Assembly: GCF_900129765.1 (NCBI RefSeq)
Contig: NZ_FQWU01000001.1
Coordinates: forward strand, 930,001-994,000
From: Massilia sp. CF038
GTDB lineage: Bacteria; Pseudomonadota; Gammaproteobacteria; Burkholderiales; Burkholderiaceae_D
Reading direction: 5' to 3'
DNA: 64,000 bases
The position numbers and the translations under genes were made by a program. Shown piece after piece: positions 6,915 to 62,167 of the stretch. The first letter of the stretch is position 1, and every line of letters begins with the position of its first letter. The notes under the pieces were generated by a model. The model was not told the DNA's origin and made no database searches. It was given only the letters and a program-made list of their open reading frames with translations.

Positions 6915-8036
6915 ATGCCAATCAAAATCAGCCAGCAATTCGATTCCGGAGCCATCGAGGTGGTGCAGGCCGACAGCGCCCAGCACATCGACCTGAATCT
7001 GCGCAAAGATTCGCACGCCGACATTCATCAGTGGTTCCATTTCCGCCTGCAGGGCGCACGCGGCCAGGACTGCAAAATCCGCTTCCTGAACGCCGGCCAG
7101 GCCACCTACGCCAAGGGCTACGAAGACTACCAGGTGGCAGCCAGCTACGACACCGAGAACTGGTTCCGCGTGCCCACTACCTTCGACGGCCAGGTCATGA
7201 CCGTCAGCCATACCCCGGAACTTGACAGCGTCTATTACGCCTACTTCGAGCCCTACTCGTGGGAGCGCCATCTGCGCCTGCTGGGCGAAGTGGCCGACAA
7301 TCCCATCGCGCGCGTGCACGACATCGGCAGCTCGGTCGACGGGCGCGACATGAATCTGGTCGTGGTCGGCAATCCCGCCGCGGAAAAGAAAATCTGGGTC
7401 ATCGCGCGCCAGCATCCGGGCGAAACCATGGCCGAGTGGTTCGTCGAAGGCATGCTTGACGCCTTGCTCGACAATGCCAACCCGGTCGCGCGCAAGCTGC
7501 TGCAGCGCGCCGTGTTCTACGTGGTGCCAAACATGAACCCGGACGGTTCGGTACGGGGCAACCTGCGCACCAATGCGGCAGGCGCCAACCTCAATCGCGA
7601 ATGGATGACGCCATCGGCCGAGCGCAGTCCTGAAGTGCTGTGCGTGAAAAACAAGATCCACGAAGTCGGCTGCGACATGTTCTTCGACATTCACGGCGAC
7701 GAAGCCTTGCCCTACAACTTCGTGGCAGGGAACGAAATGCTGGCCGACTTCACGCCCGAGCGCGCGGCGCGCCAGAAAGCCTTTGTCGACCAGTACATGG
7801 CGGCCAGCCCCGACTTCCAGAACGTGTATGGCTACGCCGCCAGCAAGTACAACGAAGACATGCTCACGCTCGCGTCCAAGTACATTGGCCACACCTTCAA
7901 GTGCCTGTCGCTGACGCTGGAAATGCCGTTCAAGGACAATGCCAACCTGCCTGATGCCTACACTGGTTGGAACGGTGCGCGCAGCAGCGAATTGGGCCGC
8001 GCGATTCTGCAGCCGATTCTGAGCTCGCTGGACTAA
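6915..8036 (+). CDS. M14-family zinc carboxypeptidase, cytosolic CCP-like
   Basis: A 373-residue protein with no signal peptide. The zinc ligands are visible as His167 and Glu170 (QHPGE) and His260 (FFDIHGDE), and the catalytic Glu is probably Glu336 (LTLEMPF). The roughly 120-residue N-terminal beta domain ahead of the peptidase is the arrangement of cytosolic carboxypeptidases of the Nna1/AGBL type, which in eukaryotes trim glutamate from protein tails. Bacterial members have mostly unknown substrates. It ends two bases before the CYTH gene, so both are probably translated from one message. Confidence 0.88.
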   Translation: MPIKISQQFDSGAIEVVQADSAQHIDLNLRKDSHADIHQWFHFRLQGARGQDCKIRFLNAGQATYAKGYEDYQVAASYDTENWFRVPTTFDGQVMTVSHTPELDSVYYAYFEPYSWERHLRLLGEVADNPIARVHDIGSSVDGRDMNLVVVGNPAAEKKIWVIARQHPGETMAEWFVEGMLDALLDNANPVARKLLQRAVFYVVPNMNPDGSVRGNLRTNAAGANLNREWMTPSAERSPEVLCVKNKIHEVGCDMFFDIHGDEALPYNFVAGNEMLADFTPERAARQKAFVDQYMAASPDFQNVYGYAASKYNEDMLTLASKYIGHTFKCLSLTLEMPFKDNANLPDAYTGWNGARSSELGRAILQPILSSLD

Positions 8037-57146: not shown

Positions 57147-58127
57147 TTATTTGCCGGGCTGAATGACCACTTTACCCGTCACTTTACGCGCCGCCATGTC
57201 GTTCAACGCCGCCGCCGTATCCTTGAGCGCATAACGTCCCGAAATATGCGGCTTAATCTTGCCTTCGCCCAACCAGCCAATCAACTGGCGCATGGCCGCC
57301 ATGTTGGCCTTCGGTTCGCGCTTGGCAAATTCGCCCCAGAACACGCCCATCAATGAGGCGCCCTTGAGCAAGGTCAGGTTCAGTGGCAGCTTGGGAATCT
57401 CGCCATTGGCAAAGCCCACCACCAGGTAGCGCCCGCGCCAGCCAATCGAACGGAAAGCGGGCTCTGCATAGATGCCGCCAACCGGATCGTAAATCACATC
57501 CGGCCCCTTGCCATCGGTGGCCGCCTTGATGGCCTCGCGCAAGTCTTCGCTGCTGTAGTTGATGGTGGCGTCAGCGCCGTGGGCGCGGCACACAGCCAGT
57601 TTTTCTTCGCTGGACGCGGCCGCAATCACGTGCGCCCCCAGCGCCTTGCCGATCTCGATTGCCGCCAGCCCGACCCCGCCTGCCGCACCCAGCACCAGCA
57701 TGGTTTCGCCGGCTTTGAGGGCGGCGCGGTCGACCACCGCATGATGCGACGTGCCGTAGGTGAGGGTGATGGCCGCTGCCGTGTCGAAGTCCATGCCAGG
57801 TGGCATGGGCATCAAGGCGTGCACCGGCACCACGATCTGCTGCGCGAACGCGCCCTGGGCCGTGAAGGCAATCACCTTGTCGCCCGCCTTGAAGGTGGTG
57901 ACCCCGTCGCCGACAGCGCGCACCACGCCGGACAGTTCGCTGCCTGGCGTGAACGGCAGTTCAGGCTTGAACTGGTACTTGCCCTGGATGATCAGCACAT
58001 CGGGAAAGTTGACGCCAGCGGCCATCACCTCGAGTGCCACCTGGCCGGGACCGGGCTGGGGATCGGGCAAGTCCTGAATGGCTAATGTATCGGGCAATCC
58101 CCATGCGCTGCAGACCACGGCTTTCAT
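57147..58127 (-). CDS. Zinc-free NADPH:quinone oxidoreductase (MDR family)
   Basis: A 326-residue quinone oxidoreductase/zeta-crystallin-like enzyme, with GVNFPDVLIIQGKYQ, PGSELSGVVRAVGDGV, the NADPH fold LVLGAAGGVGLAAIEIGKALG and DVIYDPVGG. Start at ATG 58127 after CAGGAG; a longer open frame upstream overlaps the TIR gene region. It reduces quinones or related alkenals with NADPH. Divergent from the TIR gene across a 158-base AT-rich gap. Confidence 0.92.
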   Translation of the reverse strand: MKAVVCSAWGLPDTLAIQDLPDPQPGPGQVALEVMAAGVNFPDVLIIQGKYQFKPELPFTPGSELSGVVRAVGDGVTTFKAGDKVIAFTAQGAFAQQIVVPVHALMPMPPGMDFDTAAAITLTYGTSHHAVVDRAALKAGETMLVLGAAGGVGLAAIEIGKALGAHVIAAASSEEKLAVCRAHGADATINYSSEDLREAIKAATDGKGPDVIYDPVGGIYAEPAFRSIGWRGRYLVVGFANGEIPKLPLNLTLLKGASLMGVFWGEFAKREPKANMAAMRQLIGWLGEGKIKPHISGRYALKDTAAALNDMAARKVTGKVVIQPGK

Positions 58128-58285
58128 TGGCGTCTCCTGAATGATAAGAAAATAGTACGACCGTTTGATTTTTTGATTATGCCTGATTTGCGCACTTTGC
58201 GGGAGCGCAAGGCTGCAAATGTCGAGCTTGTTAAAGTCGAGGATGCGCGCGCGCCGGTCCGCACATTCGCAAAAGGGAGAATGAA

Positions 58286-58894
58286 ATGGCAATCCGTTAC
58301 GGCTGTTTCTTCAGTTACGCCCACGGCCGTTACGAGCTGATGAACAAGTTCAAGGCGGCCCTGTCTGATGCGATCCGCTGTTACCTGGAGCCGTATTTCG
58401 ACAACGAAGACGAGCTGTTCATCGATACCGAACAGCTCGGTGGCGGCGACGACATTGACCGCCGCATCGCGCGCGCGCTGTGCGAAAGCGTGTCCATGAT
58501 TCTGATTTACACCCCCAAGTACGAGGCGCACGGTTACACCCGGCGCGAATACGCGGCCATGCAAATGCTGGAGCAGGAGCGCGGCCAGTGGTACCCCATG
58601 CCCAGCCATTTGATCATTCCCGTGATCATGACCATGCACCCTGGCCGCCTGCCGCCGCAAATCACCAATTCCAGCCTGTACGTGGACTTTTCCCATTTCA
58701 CGATGGCGACCAGCGACCTGAAGTCAAATCCCGATTTTCTGCCAGACATTAAGAAAATTGTTGAGCGGATTGTTATTCACTATCAGTACCAAAAAAGGTA
58801 CACGCCGGTGGGACATGATTGCAACCAATTCGTGCTCCCCGATGTCCCACCTGAATGGCGCGATCTGCCGGATCTGACTTTTCCAAAAAAATAG
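58286..58894 (+). CDS. TIR-domain protein
   Basis: A 202-residue protein. Residues 5-120 look like a TIR domain: box 1 CFFSYAHG, LFIDTEQLGGGDDIDRRIARAL, then MILIYTPKYEAHGYTRREYAAM, where Glu88 is in the position of the catalytic NADase glutamate. The C-terminal part (DLKSNPDFLPDIKKIVER) is helical. TIR proteins cleave NAD in bacterial immune systems or act as adaptors. The AAAGGGAG site is strong. It is 10 bases before the P-loop/TPR gene, so the two form a unit. Confidence 0.82.
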   Translation: MAIRYGCFFSYAHGRYELMNKFKAALSDAIRCYLEPYFDNEDELFIDTEQLGGGDDIDRRIARALCESVSMILIYTPKYEAHGYTRREYAAMQMLEQERGQWYPMPSHLIIPVIMTMHPGRLPPQITNSSLYVDFSHFTMATSDLKSNPDFLPDIKKIVERIVIHYQYQKRYTPVGHDCNQFVLPDVPPEWRDLPDLTFPKK

Positions 58895-58904
58895 AGGAGC
58901 ATTA

Positions 58905-61358
58905 ATGGAACGCAAACGCATTACCCTGCCGCCGATAACCGCTCCCGGCGAGGTGACCACGTTTTACTCTTTCGAGAGCGGAACGGCGCGCAGTATCGCG
59001 CTGTCGAACACAGCAGTACTGCTGGCGGGCCGGGCCAATGCCACGGTGCCAGTGCTGATGATCGATTGGGACACCGAATCACCGGGTCTGCATCACCATT
59101 TCGGCTGCGGCCAAGCCGCACCCGGCCTGCTGGAATATTTTCAGGCCTGCCGCGACTACCTGCACAGCCTGGGGCGCGCGCCTGCCGCTGCCGACGACAG
59201 CGCGCTGGCGCGCCAGGTGCTCGAGGCCATCGACTGGGAACCCTTTGTCGAGCGGGTCGACGCCAGCCGCCCCCTGTACCTGATGCGCGCCGGCCTGCTG
59301 GACGACAGTTACGGCGAGCGCGCCGACCGCATGGACTGGGATGGCTTGTTCACCGCCTGTCCCGCCTTGTTCCGCTGCTTTGGCGACCATCTCGCACGGC
59401 GCTTTCGGCATGTGCTGGTCGATGCGCGCAGTGGCCGCTCGGCTGCCGTGAGCATCTGCACCACCTTGCTGCCGACCCGCCTGGTCACCTTGTTCACCCC
59501 CAACCAGCGCAGCCTCGACGGTCTGGCCGGGGTGGTCACCCGCGCCATCGATTACCGCTGCAGCCACGAGGAAGAGCAGCGCCCGCTGCTGGTGTATCCG
59601 CTGCCCTCATCGATCGACAGCGCCGACTGCGAGCGGCGTATCCAGTGGCGCCGCGGCGATCCCCAGCGCGGGCAGCCAGGCTATCAGCCGGTGCTGGAGA
59701 AGCTGCTGCGCCAGTGCTACAGCATGTCGCAGCTGTCACTCGAGAGCTACTTCAACGAAGTCCAGCTGCAGCAAACCAATGCCATGTCGGGCGGTGACCA
59801 GCTCCCTGCCATGGCCGCGCGCGAGGCCGACCGCTTTTCGCTGGCGCGCACCTTCGAGACCTTGCTGGCCTGGCTGGGCGAAGGCCGCTTTCCCTGGCAG
59901 TCGCTGGACGAAGTGCGCCTGGTCGATGCCATTGCCCAGGCGCGCGCCCTGCTGGGCGAGTGCGCGGGCGGCGCCATTTCGCTGCCGCTGGCGCACGATT
60001 TGCACGCGCTGGGTCTGCTGTACCAGGACCAGGGCAGGGCCGCCCAGGCCCTGGCCTGCTACGAAGAAAGCCTGGCCCTGCGCCAGCGCGTGCTGGGCGA
60101 AGACCACCCCGATACCCGCCGCAGCCGGGCCCACCTGGCGGCGCTGCTGCGCGACAGCGGCAAGCTGCCCGAGGCCAGCTTCCTGCACGAATTGCTGGTG
60201 GAAGACTGTCTGCGCCTGCTTGGCCCCGACCACCCCGACACGCTGGCCGCGCGCGCCGCGCTGGCCGCCACCCTGGCGGCACTGGGCGAATTTGAACGCG
60301 CGCTCAGTTTGCACGAACAAGTCATCGCCGATTGTGAGCGCCTGTTTGGCGCCGGCAGTGCCCTCACGCTCGACAGCCTGGCCGGGCAGGCGCAAACCCT
60401 GACCCGGCGCGGCGAATTTTCGCGCGCCCGCATGGTGTACGAACGGGTGCTCGAAGGCCGTGAACGCCTGCTTGGCGACGAGCACGCCGACACCGTGCGC
60501 TGCGCCCAGCAGCTGGCCATGCTGCTCTACGAGCTGGGCGACCTCAATCATGCGCGCAAGCTGCAGGAGGGCGTGGTCGAAGCGCGCGACCGCCACCTGG
60601 GCCACGACCATCCGCTCACCCTGGACGCGCGCGCGCAGCTGGCTGAAATCCTTGCGGCCCAAAGCGACATCGATGGCGTGCGCAAGGTGCTCGAAGCCCT
60701 CGCTGCCGGACGCGAACGGCGTCTGGGTGCCGAACATCCCGATACGCTGTCCATTCAACTGCGCCTGGCCTCCATGCTCAGCGATTATGGCGACCATGGC
60801 GACCTTGATGCGGCGCGCCGCCTGCAGCAGCAGTTGTTAAGTGTGCACGAGCGGGTGCACGGCGAGGACGACCTGCATACCCTCCATTGTAAAAAGGCCC
60901 TGGCCACCACGCTCTCGCGCCAGGGCCACAGCGTGGACGCGCGCAAGCTCGAAGAATCGGTCCTCGCCGGCAGCGCCCGCCTGATCAGCAAGCGCGGGGT
61001 GGCAGCCGGGCCGCACGAGTCGCACGCGGGCGCGCTCGGCTTGCGCGCCTCCATTCTCGACGGGCGCGACCATCCCGACCAGGCCGAAACGCTGGGCCAC
61101 AAACTGGCCCAGCTGCAGCAACTGATCGACAACCGCAGCGAGCGCGAGGCGCGCGAACTGGCCGACAGTTTGCGCCAGTCGGTGCTGCGCCCGAATGCTG
61201 CCAATCCCCTGCGCCTGCGCGGCGTGGCCATGATCAAGCAAGTCTATTTGCAAGAGAATGACAAAGATGCCTTGCTGTCGTTTGCACAAGATGAAGTGTC
61301 ATCGTTGCAAGAGGCATTGAAGGAAGTGGCGGGCGGCCGCGCTGCCACGATCCTCTGA
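58905..61358 (+). CDS. Degenerate KGGVGR-type P-loop protein with TPR repeats
   Basis: An 817-residue protein. The N-terminal part is a ParA/MinD-like fold: FYSFESGTARSIALSNTAVL aligns with the usual FYSYKGGTGRTMALAN, and DWDTESPGLHHHF with DWDLEAPG. Walker A lysine and a glycine are replaced (K24E, G25S, G28A), so it is probably catalytically inactive. From residue about 362 to 685 are six or seven 42-residue TPRs of kinesin-light-chain type (LGxDHPDTLxxR). The domain order resembles actinobacterial FxsT. It follows the TIR gene with a GAGGAG site. Confidence 0.85.
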   Translation: MERKRITLPPITAPGEVTTFYSFESGTARSIALSNTAVLLAGRANATVPVLMIDWDTESPGLHHHFGCGQAAPGLLEYFQACRDYLHSLGRAPAAADDSALARQVLEAIDWEPFVERVDASRPLYLMRAGLLDDSYGERADRMDWDGLFTACPALFRCFGDHLARRFRHVLVDARSGRSAAVSICTTLLPTRLVTLFTPNQRSLDGLAGVVTRAIDYRCSHEEEQRPLLVYPLPSSIDSADCERRIQWRRGDPQRGQPGYQPVLEKLLRQCYSMSQLSLESYFNEVQLQQTNAMSGGDQLPAMAAREADRFSLARTFETLLAWLGEGRFPWQSLDEVRLVDAIAQARALLGECAGGAISLPLAHDLHALGLLYQDQGRAAQALACYEESLALRQRVLGEDHPDTRRSRAHLAALLRDSGKLPEASFLHELLVEDCLRLLGPDHPDTLAARAALAATLAALGEFERALSLHEQVIADCERLFGAGSALTLDSLAGQAQTLTRRGEFSRARMVYERVLEGRERLLGDEHADTVRCAQQLAMLLYELGDLNHARKLQEGVVEARDRHLGHDHPLTLDARAQLAEILAAQSDIDGVRKVLEALAAGRERRLGAEHPDTLSIQLRLASMLSDYGDHGDLDAARRLQQQLLSVHERVHGEDDLHTLHCKKALATTLSRQGHSVDARKLEESVLAGSARLISKRGVAAGPHESHAGALGLRASILDGRDHPDQAETLGHKLAQLQQLIDNRSEREARELADSLRQSVLRPNAANPLRLRGVAMIKQVYLQENDKDALLSFAQDEVSSLQEALKEVAGGRAATIL

Positions 61359-61429
61359 CATCTGTTGCACACCACAAAATCTTGGAGGCAGGCGAGCGGT
61401 GGAACCGTTGCTTCAGGTAAAATCGCTGC

Positions 61430-62167
61430 ATGAGAATTCTGATTAGCAATGATGATGGCTATCTGGCCCCGGGCCTGGAAGCCCTGGCCGGGGCGCTGGC
61501 AAGCATCGCCGAGATTGTCGTCGTCGCGCCGGACAGCAATCGTTCGGGCGCGTCCAATTCCCTGACGCTGGACCGGCCCCTGTCAGTGCAGCGGGCCGCC
61601 AATGGCTTTTATTACGTCAATGGCACCCCCACTGACTGCGTGCACATTGCCTTGACGGGCATGCTCGACTACCGTCCCGATCTGGTTGTCTCCGGTATCA
61701 ACAACGGCCAGAACATGGGCGATGACACCCTGTATTCGGGCACGGTGGCGGCCGCCACGGAAGGCTATCTGTTCGGTATCCCGGCGATTGCCTTCTCGCA
61801 GGTGGCGCACGGCTGGGAGCATGTCGATGCTGCTGCCCGCGTGGCCTGCGAGATCGTGCAGCGCCGCTTTGACGGCTTGCCCTCGCCATATCTGCTGAAC
61901 GTCAACATTCCCAACCTGCCATACGAAGCGATGGGCGCGCTGCGCCCAACCCGCCTGGGCCGGCGCCACCAGGCCGAGCCGGTGATCCGCACCCAGGATC
62001 CGCGCGGCCGCGATATTTACTGGATAGGCCCGCCCGGCGCTTGCCTCGATGCCGGCGAGGGGACCGACTTTTACGCCACCGCCCAGGGGGAGGTCTCGAT
62101 CACCCCCTTGCAGATCGACCTGACCCACAAGACCCAGCTCGAGCTGCTGGCGCGGGGTCTGGCATGA
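61430..62167 (+). CDS. surE: 5'/3'-nucleotidase SurE
   Basis: A 245-residue metal-dependent phosphatase starting [15 protein letters not shown], with Asp8 and Asp9, then [12 protein letters not shown] and [17 protein letters not shown]. It hydrolyses nucleoside monophosphates. A -10-like TAAAAT box at 61418 is just upstream. It overlaps pcm by four bases (ATGA), the conserved surE-pcm-nlpD order, in which rpoS usually follows. Confidence 0.96.

Follow-up and report, generated by a model that had tools for sequence, protein, structure and literature searches.

Does the gene pair that stands beside surE in Massilia sp. CF038, encoding a TIR protein and a P-loop/TPR protein, serve defence against phages or the cell's own signalling? 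We examined it in a stretch of 64,000 nucleotides (hereafter the window; NCBI RefSeq assembly GCF_900129765.1, contig NZ_FQWU01000001.1, positions 930,001 to 994,000 of the forward strand), for which a preliminary description made from the letters had proposed a TIR-based immune or signalling system. The signalling half of that proposal fits our results better, while the immune half is neither established nor dismissed by them. We tentatively read the pair, with something close to an even chance of being right, as a vertically inherited, physiologically controlled TIR switch gated by a MinD-like partner. As the pair is kept at one spot across relatives, it would be an old, built-in switch rather than a recent anti-virus island. 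The observations that carry this reading concern gene structure, fold class, conservation, synteny, joint loss, a single motif change and a conserved promoter.

Conservation of the pair at one chromosomal site

Both open reading frames (ORFs) lie where the preliminary description had placed them (Table 1), separated by 10 bases that include a ribosome-binding-like AGGAG (58895-58899), and the second indeed encodes 817 residues. A chance pair of ORFs is ruled out, since the protein pair is conserved across many genomes. The TIR protein was found in 20 of the 60 relatives searched, own genome included (its own, 16/16 others of the genus, and three other genera), and the partner was found in the same 20, with distant relatives of it in genomes G017 and G025. 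Two of those 16 have incomplete TIR genes: that of G001 is a 47-residue fragment at a contig end and that of G006 is in two pieces. At the family level, the TIR protein is present in 96/294 genomes from 5 genera. In the neighbouring genus, that of G033, the TIR is present in 57 and the partner in 56 of 62 genomes (E <= 1e-40); the same 5 lack both, and in G712, the one discordant genome, the TIR match lies at a contig end. Co-occurrence of paired homologues, on which the preliminary description had made its proposal depend, thus holds for presence and absence alike. It had also counted presence in all relatives, as a housekeeping locus, against itself; within the genus the pair comes close to this, but the 5 genomes of the neighbouring genus show that it is not universal. 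Outside this group the family is rare, as a TIR profile (A5) run over 398 genomes of the phylum had matches in the window genome and G033 and nowhere else.

The partner comes next in 18/18 fetched TIR regions, and surE follows in 17, the 18th stopping at a contig end; G001 would be the 19th, but it is split between two contigs and stands outside this count. We also compared 80 named loci from Massilia, Telluria, Duganella, Rugamonas, Janthinobacterium, Pseudoduganella and from a few records with different names. These contain the TIR (80), the partner (78), surE (73), dinG (76) and the quinone reductase (60), and the order TIR-partner-surE holds in all 73 that have all three; the remaining 7, without a surE match, are short or contig-end stretches. 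The pair therefore occupies one chromosomal site in Massilia-Telluria-Duganella-Rugamonas-Janthinobacterium relatives, with dinG/quinone reductase on one side and surE on the other. For the protein comparisons below, we used the 80 loci and the window and dropped L136, L138 and L143 (short TIR frames) and L122 (disrupted partner frame), which left 78 TIR and 77 partner sequences. L109 and L129 have more DNA between partner and surE than other loci do (about 2.7 and 1.7 kb, by BLAST ends). Record names may be out of date in two cases, as L134 (Herbaspirillum sp. SJZ107) groups with Massilia and L165 (Massilia sp. Root351) with Pseudoduganella in a tree of TIR and SurE.

Losses remove both genes together. 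The site is empty in 9/15 regions without the pair, where surE is immediately preceded by the quinone reductase (6) or dinG (3); the other 6 have a longer gap or different neighbours. Among the 5 losses in the neighbouring genus, L219-L221 also lack the quinone reductase and L223 has a 162-bp gap. At L222 (G708, surE on the plus strand), a TPR remnant like the partner (7344-7688) lies between the retained quinone reductase and surE, and the TIR and the MinD-like domain are gone. In G201 (L224), a single in-frame TAA interrupts the TIR gene and the partner is 42% identical; this copy is probably decaying. No TIR match was found in 72,556 plasmid records. Together with the fixed synteny and with no mobile genes at the site, this rules out a mobile or defence island, and the distribution is, judging from gene order, that of a vertically inherited locus.

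The TIR protein and the sequence upstream of it

The TIR fold named in the preliminary description was borne out from two sides. The protein matches Pfam TIR_2 (PF13676) with E 3.2e-9 and 37.8 bits, over the cut-off of 28, and its AlphaFold2 model (predicted local distance difference test (pLDDT) 78.7; predicted template modelling score (pTM) 0.79) retrieves solved TIR structures in Foldseek, with SPARTA TIR-APAZ first (E 3e-4), followed by RPP1, RUN1, SARM1 and AbTir. E88, already singled out as the likely catalytic residue, is spaced like the catalytic TIR glutamate (a position assigned by motif spacing), and the P-x-Y...R-E spacing is that of canonical TIRs, e.g. PRYLNSEWCTREV in L232. It is invariant in 43/43 aligned orthologues, shows zero changes on a 71-row tree and is kept in a 39%-identical homologue, which agrees with the conservation that the preliminary description had looked for. 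However, 72/202 TIR columns are unchanged on this tree, so that conservation of E88 alone is not special. The ratio of nonsynonymous to synonymous substitution (dN/dS) was estimated by the Nei-Gojobori method over 68 rows, using the 1655 of 2278 pairs in which all four dS were between 0.1 and 1.5; by this measure the TIR is about as constrained as surE (median 0.146 vs 0.165). The TIR protein would probably cleave NAD+ by way of Glu88. The same genome encodes a second TIR_2-like protein, L002 (G000:C2:628757-629080), which at 25.5 bits is under the Pfam cut-off.

Upstream of the TIR gene, TTG-N8-CAA followed after 21-22 bp by TAnAGT was present in 78/81 regions (the window and the 80 loci), compared to 1/4860 dinucleotide shuffles; since the 81 rows are related, this count measures conservation and should not be read as 78 separate events. 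L123-L125, the three regions that lack the pattern, have CTGCG in place of TTG. Symmetry of the palindrome is confined largely to its outer three pairs (78/78), the inner pairs being symmetrical in 28, 64, 18 and 23 of 78, and apart from this box and TAnAGT the 170 bp before the TIR start align poorly (28 of the 81 rows shown in the alignment). In the window alone, the one palindrome match is at chance level (0.72 expected), so the evidence for the box is its conservation. The box is to be assigned to the TIR gene, as 18/20 loci in which no quinone reductase was detected keep it; a looser palindrome lies within 220 bp of surE in 2/15 regions without the pair. The palindrome centre is near -41 of the start site predicted from the -10-like box, which is the usual position for a class II activator. 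The geometry present at the pair is that of a putative CRP/FNR-family-type promoter. The FixK2 box is given in PMC6710368 as a 14-bp palindrome, TTGA/C-N6-T/GCAA, with sites such as TTGCGCGAGCGCAA, and the window's TTGCGGGAGCGCAA has this form. A different conserved element, TTGCTTCAGGTAAAATC, lies just before surE. GGTAAAAT is found at -14/-15 before surE in 7/15 regions without the pair, with similar sequence at loss sites; as it is kept where the pair is absent, this element is probably surE's own promoter.

The partner protein and its signature lysine

Residues 17-212 of the partner match the NCBIfam model AAA_KGGVGR (NF047398; E 1.4e-20, 74.4 bits) below its cut-off of 90, whereas orthologues with an intact lysine pass (123.3 bits for the Janthinobacterium-type G021, 123.5 for Duganella); across 369 genomes of the class, 13 proteins are over the cut-off. 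The retained DWDTESPGL and the TPR repeats after the P-loop domain, both reported in the preliminary description, were confirmed from the sequence and from Pfam (7 stretches of TPR_10, 6 of TPR_12). The strand and helix order of the partner's model (pLDDT 81.0) fits a MinD-like domain. The Foldseek matches listed for this model are TPR chains only, kinesin light chain first, so the MinD fold rests on the sequence models and the secondary-structure order. DNA-level expansion of the TPRs was not found with TRF.

The window has ESGTARS, within YSFESGTARS, which does not match KGG.GR[ST]; related genera keep KGG(T/A/S)GR where the window has E24. In the deviant Walker A motif KGGXXK[S/T], as tabulated in PMC9178275 (Table 1), the first lysine is the signature and the second is catalytic. 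By alignment to this motif, the window has lost the MinD-type signature lysine; where the second lysine would stand, the KGGVGR family already has Arg. The preliminary description was thus right that a Walker A lysine had gone (K24E), but this was not the catalytic one, and the degenerate P-loop that it described holds for the window, whereas relatives in Duganella, Rugamonas, Janthinobacterium and Pseudoduganella retain the complete motif. Among the 77 partner sequences, 24 have K at position 24, 39 have E and 14 have D, with no other letters, and R29, D54, D56, P60, L62, G177 and R178 are invariant in 77/77. The K-24 rows come from these four genera and from Massilia sp. Root351, which groups with Pseudoduganella. 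On the TIR+SurE tree (79 rows; the D-type L139 is outside it, its contig being without surE), one change accounts for K versus acid and two for K/E/D. The simplest view is that the acidic state is derived, because there is this one change, the K-intact kin match NF047398, and distant KGGVGR proteins also have K. Across the 47 rows of the acid clade there is one change in column 24, against 3 to 7 in columns 25-28.

Partner lengths differ with the residue at this position: 639-821 residues with K, 389-950 with E (the 389 being cut by a contig end) and 393-537 with D, apart from one of 816. All seven D-type partners scanned (L065, L113, L121, L128, L132, L133, L134; L139, the one with 816 residues, was left out) are without a Pfam TPR match. 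On this evidence, one sub-clade has lost the partner's TPRs after the lysine change. From the K-clade (210 pairs) to the acid-clade (932 pairs), median dN/dS goes from 0.069 to 0.133 for the TIR, from 0.210 to 0.483 for the MinD-like domain, from 0.371 to 0.526 for the TPR region (0.59 overall) and from 0.140 to 0.153 for surE, a shift consistent with constraint on the partner having been relaxed or redirected once the lysine was lost.

The surE-pcm-nlpD neighbourhood was also as first described: surE and pcm are supported by NCBIfam, and the frame after pcm, open at the window end, is an NlpD-like lipoprotein by reading of its sequence.

Table 1. Positions of the gene pair, its domains and the adjoining features in the window.
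Feature	Position	Strand	Basis or remark
TIR protein, 202 residues, putative catalytic Glu88	58286..58894	+	ATG 58286 to TAG 58894
MinD/ParA-like (KGGVGR family) + TPR protein, 817 residues	58905..61358	+	ATG 58905, stop 61358
MinD/ParA-like domain, residues about 16-212	58950..59540	+	NF047398 match, strand/helix order in model
YSFESGTARS, degenerate deviant Walker A	58965..58994	+	E24 codon 58974-58976
TPR repeats, residues about 360-690	59982..60974	+	Pfam TPR_10/TPR_12, Foldseek TPR matches
14-bp palindrome TTGCGGGAGCGCAA, FixK/FNR-type box geometry (TTG-N8-CAA)	58197..58210	+	
TAAAGT, -10-like hexamer of predicted promoter	58232..58237	+	TAnAGT at constant palindrome distance
PIG3-family quinone oxidoreductase, divergent neighbour	57147..58127	-	NCBIfam TIGR02824, 263.5 bits, below cut-off 296.8
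TTGCTTCAGGTAAAATC, conserved element just before surE	61408..61424	+	
surE	61430..62167	+	NCBIfam match

Known systems and competing explanations

The best NCBIfam names for the two proteins are those of actinobacterial FxSxx-COOH systems, in which a TIR-like protein is also joined by a MinD-like/TPR partner, so the FxsC/FxsT resemblance noted in the preliminary description is real, though below the cut-offs: FxsC_Nterm (NF040588) gives 34.5 bits against 130 for the TIR, and FxSxx_TPR/FxsT (NF040586) gives 166.3 bits against 300 for the partner. The latter aligns only in the TPR part (residues 376-689), and the window partner has no Pfam NB-ARC/AP-ATPase match. The absence of a radical SAM gene and of an FxSxx-COOH peptide nearby, given in the preliminary description, also stands. 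The FxsB maturase was over the curated cut-off in 0/21 genomes (a relative in G009, of the same genus, reaches 269 bits against 370), and the one FxSxx-ending ORF among 329 small ORFs in the window lies 54 kb from the pair. The FxsC model found 0 proteins over cut-off in 369 genomes of the class (11 at E <= 1e-6), and none of the 13 loci fetched from this search (L227-L239, the window's own included) has a KGG.G[RK][ST] motif. We therefore reject membership of the FxSxx family, and a proteobacterial version with its peptide and maturase elsewhere in the genome, which the best model names would favour, is highly improbable given the same scores, the FxsB result and the distance of the lone ORF.

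For other conflict systems the likeness is partial. AP-ATPase, TPR and inactive MinD/ParA-like domains are described from actinobacterial conflict systems, including VMAP/peptide-processing ones (PMC7159879); judging by that account, what is shared is a MinD-like domain, predicted to be inactive, together with TPRs in the context of a TIR, whereas the window pair is proteobacterial and chromosomally fixed, with no vWA, MoxR, peptide or peptidase gene seen beside it. Thoeris ThsB has the TIR fold in common, but no ThsA-like neighbour was seen; membership is ruled out, as the window TIR has no ThsB_TIR (PF08937) match at E <= 1 and only 16.8 bits to Thoeris III ThcB4 (cut-off 220). In PADLOC, no one system was matched by both proteins; the best E for the TIR was 0.0054, and the partner matched PDC-M28B only (E 3.2e-7, residues 16-64). 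STAND-FGS/TIR pairs are described in PMC8195603. The TIR that is 39% identical over its length, of 225 residues and from another family of the class (G603), keeps the Glu and has YC. Downstream of it, on its strand, an nSTAND1 + FGE-sulfatase protein is encoded, and the contig has transposase-like ORFs (by reading); in this nSTAND1-FGE/TIR pair (L240), the partner is a STAND NTPase and not MinD-like. Viral-contig and plasmid searches with this homologue gave nothing useful. Near these genes, L240:12094-16581 (minus strand) encodes a protein of 1495 residues in which B12-binding and radical SAM domains are joined by a weak TPR match, its N-terminal half looking NB-ARC-like by eye. A Sinorhizobium plasmid carries a fusion of a KGGVGR MinD-like protein and a TIR (residues 324-445; TIR_2, E 3.6e-15), and a gene for a ThsB-type TIR lies 3.7 kb from it; other plasmid KGGVGR proteins adjoin MqsA-like or helix-turn-helix genes. 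The G603 and plasmid kin support an origin in conflict modules with reshuffled parts.

Under the reading that we favour, the small TIR protein would be the output enzyme, turning NAD+ into ADP-ribose (ADPR) products via Glu88, and the MinD-like/TPR protein, co-translated with it, would contact it as scaffold and gate. The ancestral gate would have had the intact KGG.GR nucleotide-binding motif, as it still does in Duganella, Rugamonas and Janthinobacterium. A single replacement of the signature lysine by an acidic residue in the Massilia/Telluria clade would have left a partner that may do without MinD-type ATP-dependent dimerisation, and in one sub-clade this partner would work also without TPRs. 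Through its own promoter with a FixK/FNR-type box, and presumably a regulator of this kind, the level of the pair would be set by cell physiology; once triggered, it would probably deplete NAD+ or produce an ADPR-type signal, slowing growth. Several observations weigh against this account. Foldseek matches of the TIR model have probability 1.00 but modest E-values, with only 3 at E <= 0.001, and a sequence search of solved structures with TIR profile A1 gave a lone match, a TetR protein at E 0.47. 'YT' precedes E88 where canonical TIRs read 'WC'. A simple promoter/terminator consensus scan was at chance level and showed no sigma-70 promoter here, which fits an activator-dependent promoter yet is also evidence against a strong one. 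The acid at position 24 is not exceptionally conserved, as 101/309 domain columns change at most once in the acid clade, and as the K-to-acid change is one event, cause and effect are inseparable. The dN/dS shift comes from a simple method applied to diverged, non-independent pairs. Finally, a gene looks broken in G201 and in L122, so the function is dispensable in places.

Among the alternatives, a dedicated anti-phage system, in which the TPR/MinD-like protein senses infection and releases the TIR NADase for abortive infection, is a serious contender that we nevertheless consider unlikely. According to PMC7159879 and PMC8195603, prokaryotic conflict systems commonly contain TIR and STAND/TPR modules; the kin in G603 and Sinorhizobium (the latter in a TIR/ThsB-rich stretch) occur in conflict settings, the TPR region is fast-evolving and the locus is sometimes lost. 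However, this is a fixed vertical locus in one clade, with no island, mobile genes or plasmid copies; no PADLOC TIR family matches better than E 0.005, TPRs can be lost from the partner with the TIR remaining conserved, and the promoter is of a physiological type. That the TIR is instead a non-catalytic interaction module in a structural or regulatory scaffold, with E88 kept for the fold, would suit its many unchanged columns and the 'YT', but the canonical motif spacing, the distant homologue with its Glu and YC, and the known NADases among the best fold matches make this improbable. We thus favour the physiological switch over the anti-phage system, then the non-catalytic scaffold, then a cryptic FxSxx system.

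A more specific form of the physiological switch, which we regard as doubtful, would have it domesticated in the core genome: a conflict-type module may have become established a single time, between dinG and surE, in the ancestor of the Massilia-Duganella group, come under FixK/FNR- or CRP-type control, had its ATPase gate turned into a pseudo-ATPase in Massilia by one lysine-to-acid change and later shed its TPR sensor, tying NAD+ use to oxygen, redox or cyclic-nucleotide state and not to phage. The ingredients are known, as inactive MinD/ParA-like domains with AP-ATPase and TPRs are described for actinobacterial systems (PMC7159879), and in our searches of the open-licence literature we recognised no description of a proteobacterial, chromosomally fixed TIR/MinD-like pair. 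Bacterial TIR proteins are mostly studied as phage defences, and a pair at a fixed site with a conserved promoter can be studied as possible normal physiology. The intact-motif sister genera, the lysine-replaced clade, the TPR-less sub-clade and the few pair-less lineages form a natural comparison, which makes the role of a MinD-like partner for a TIR testable.

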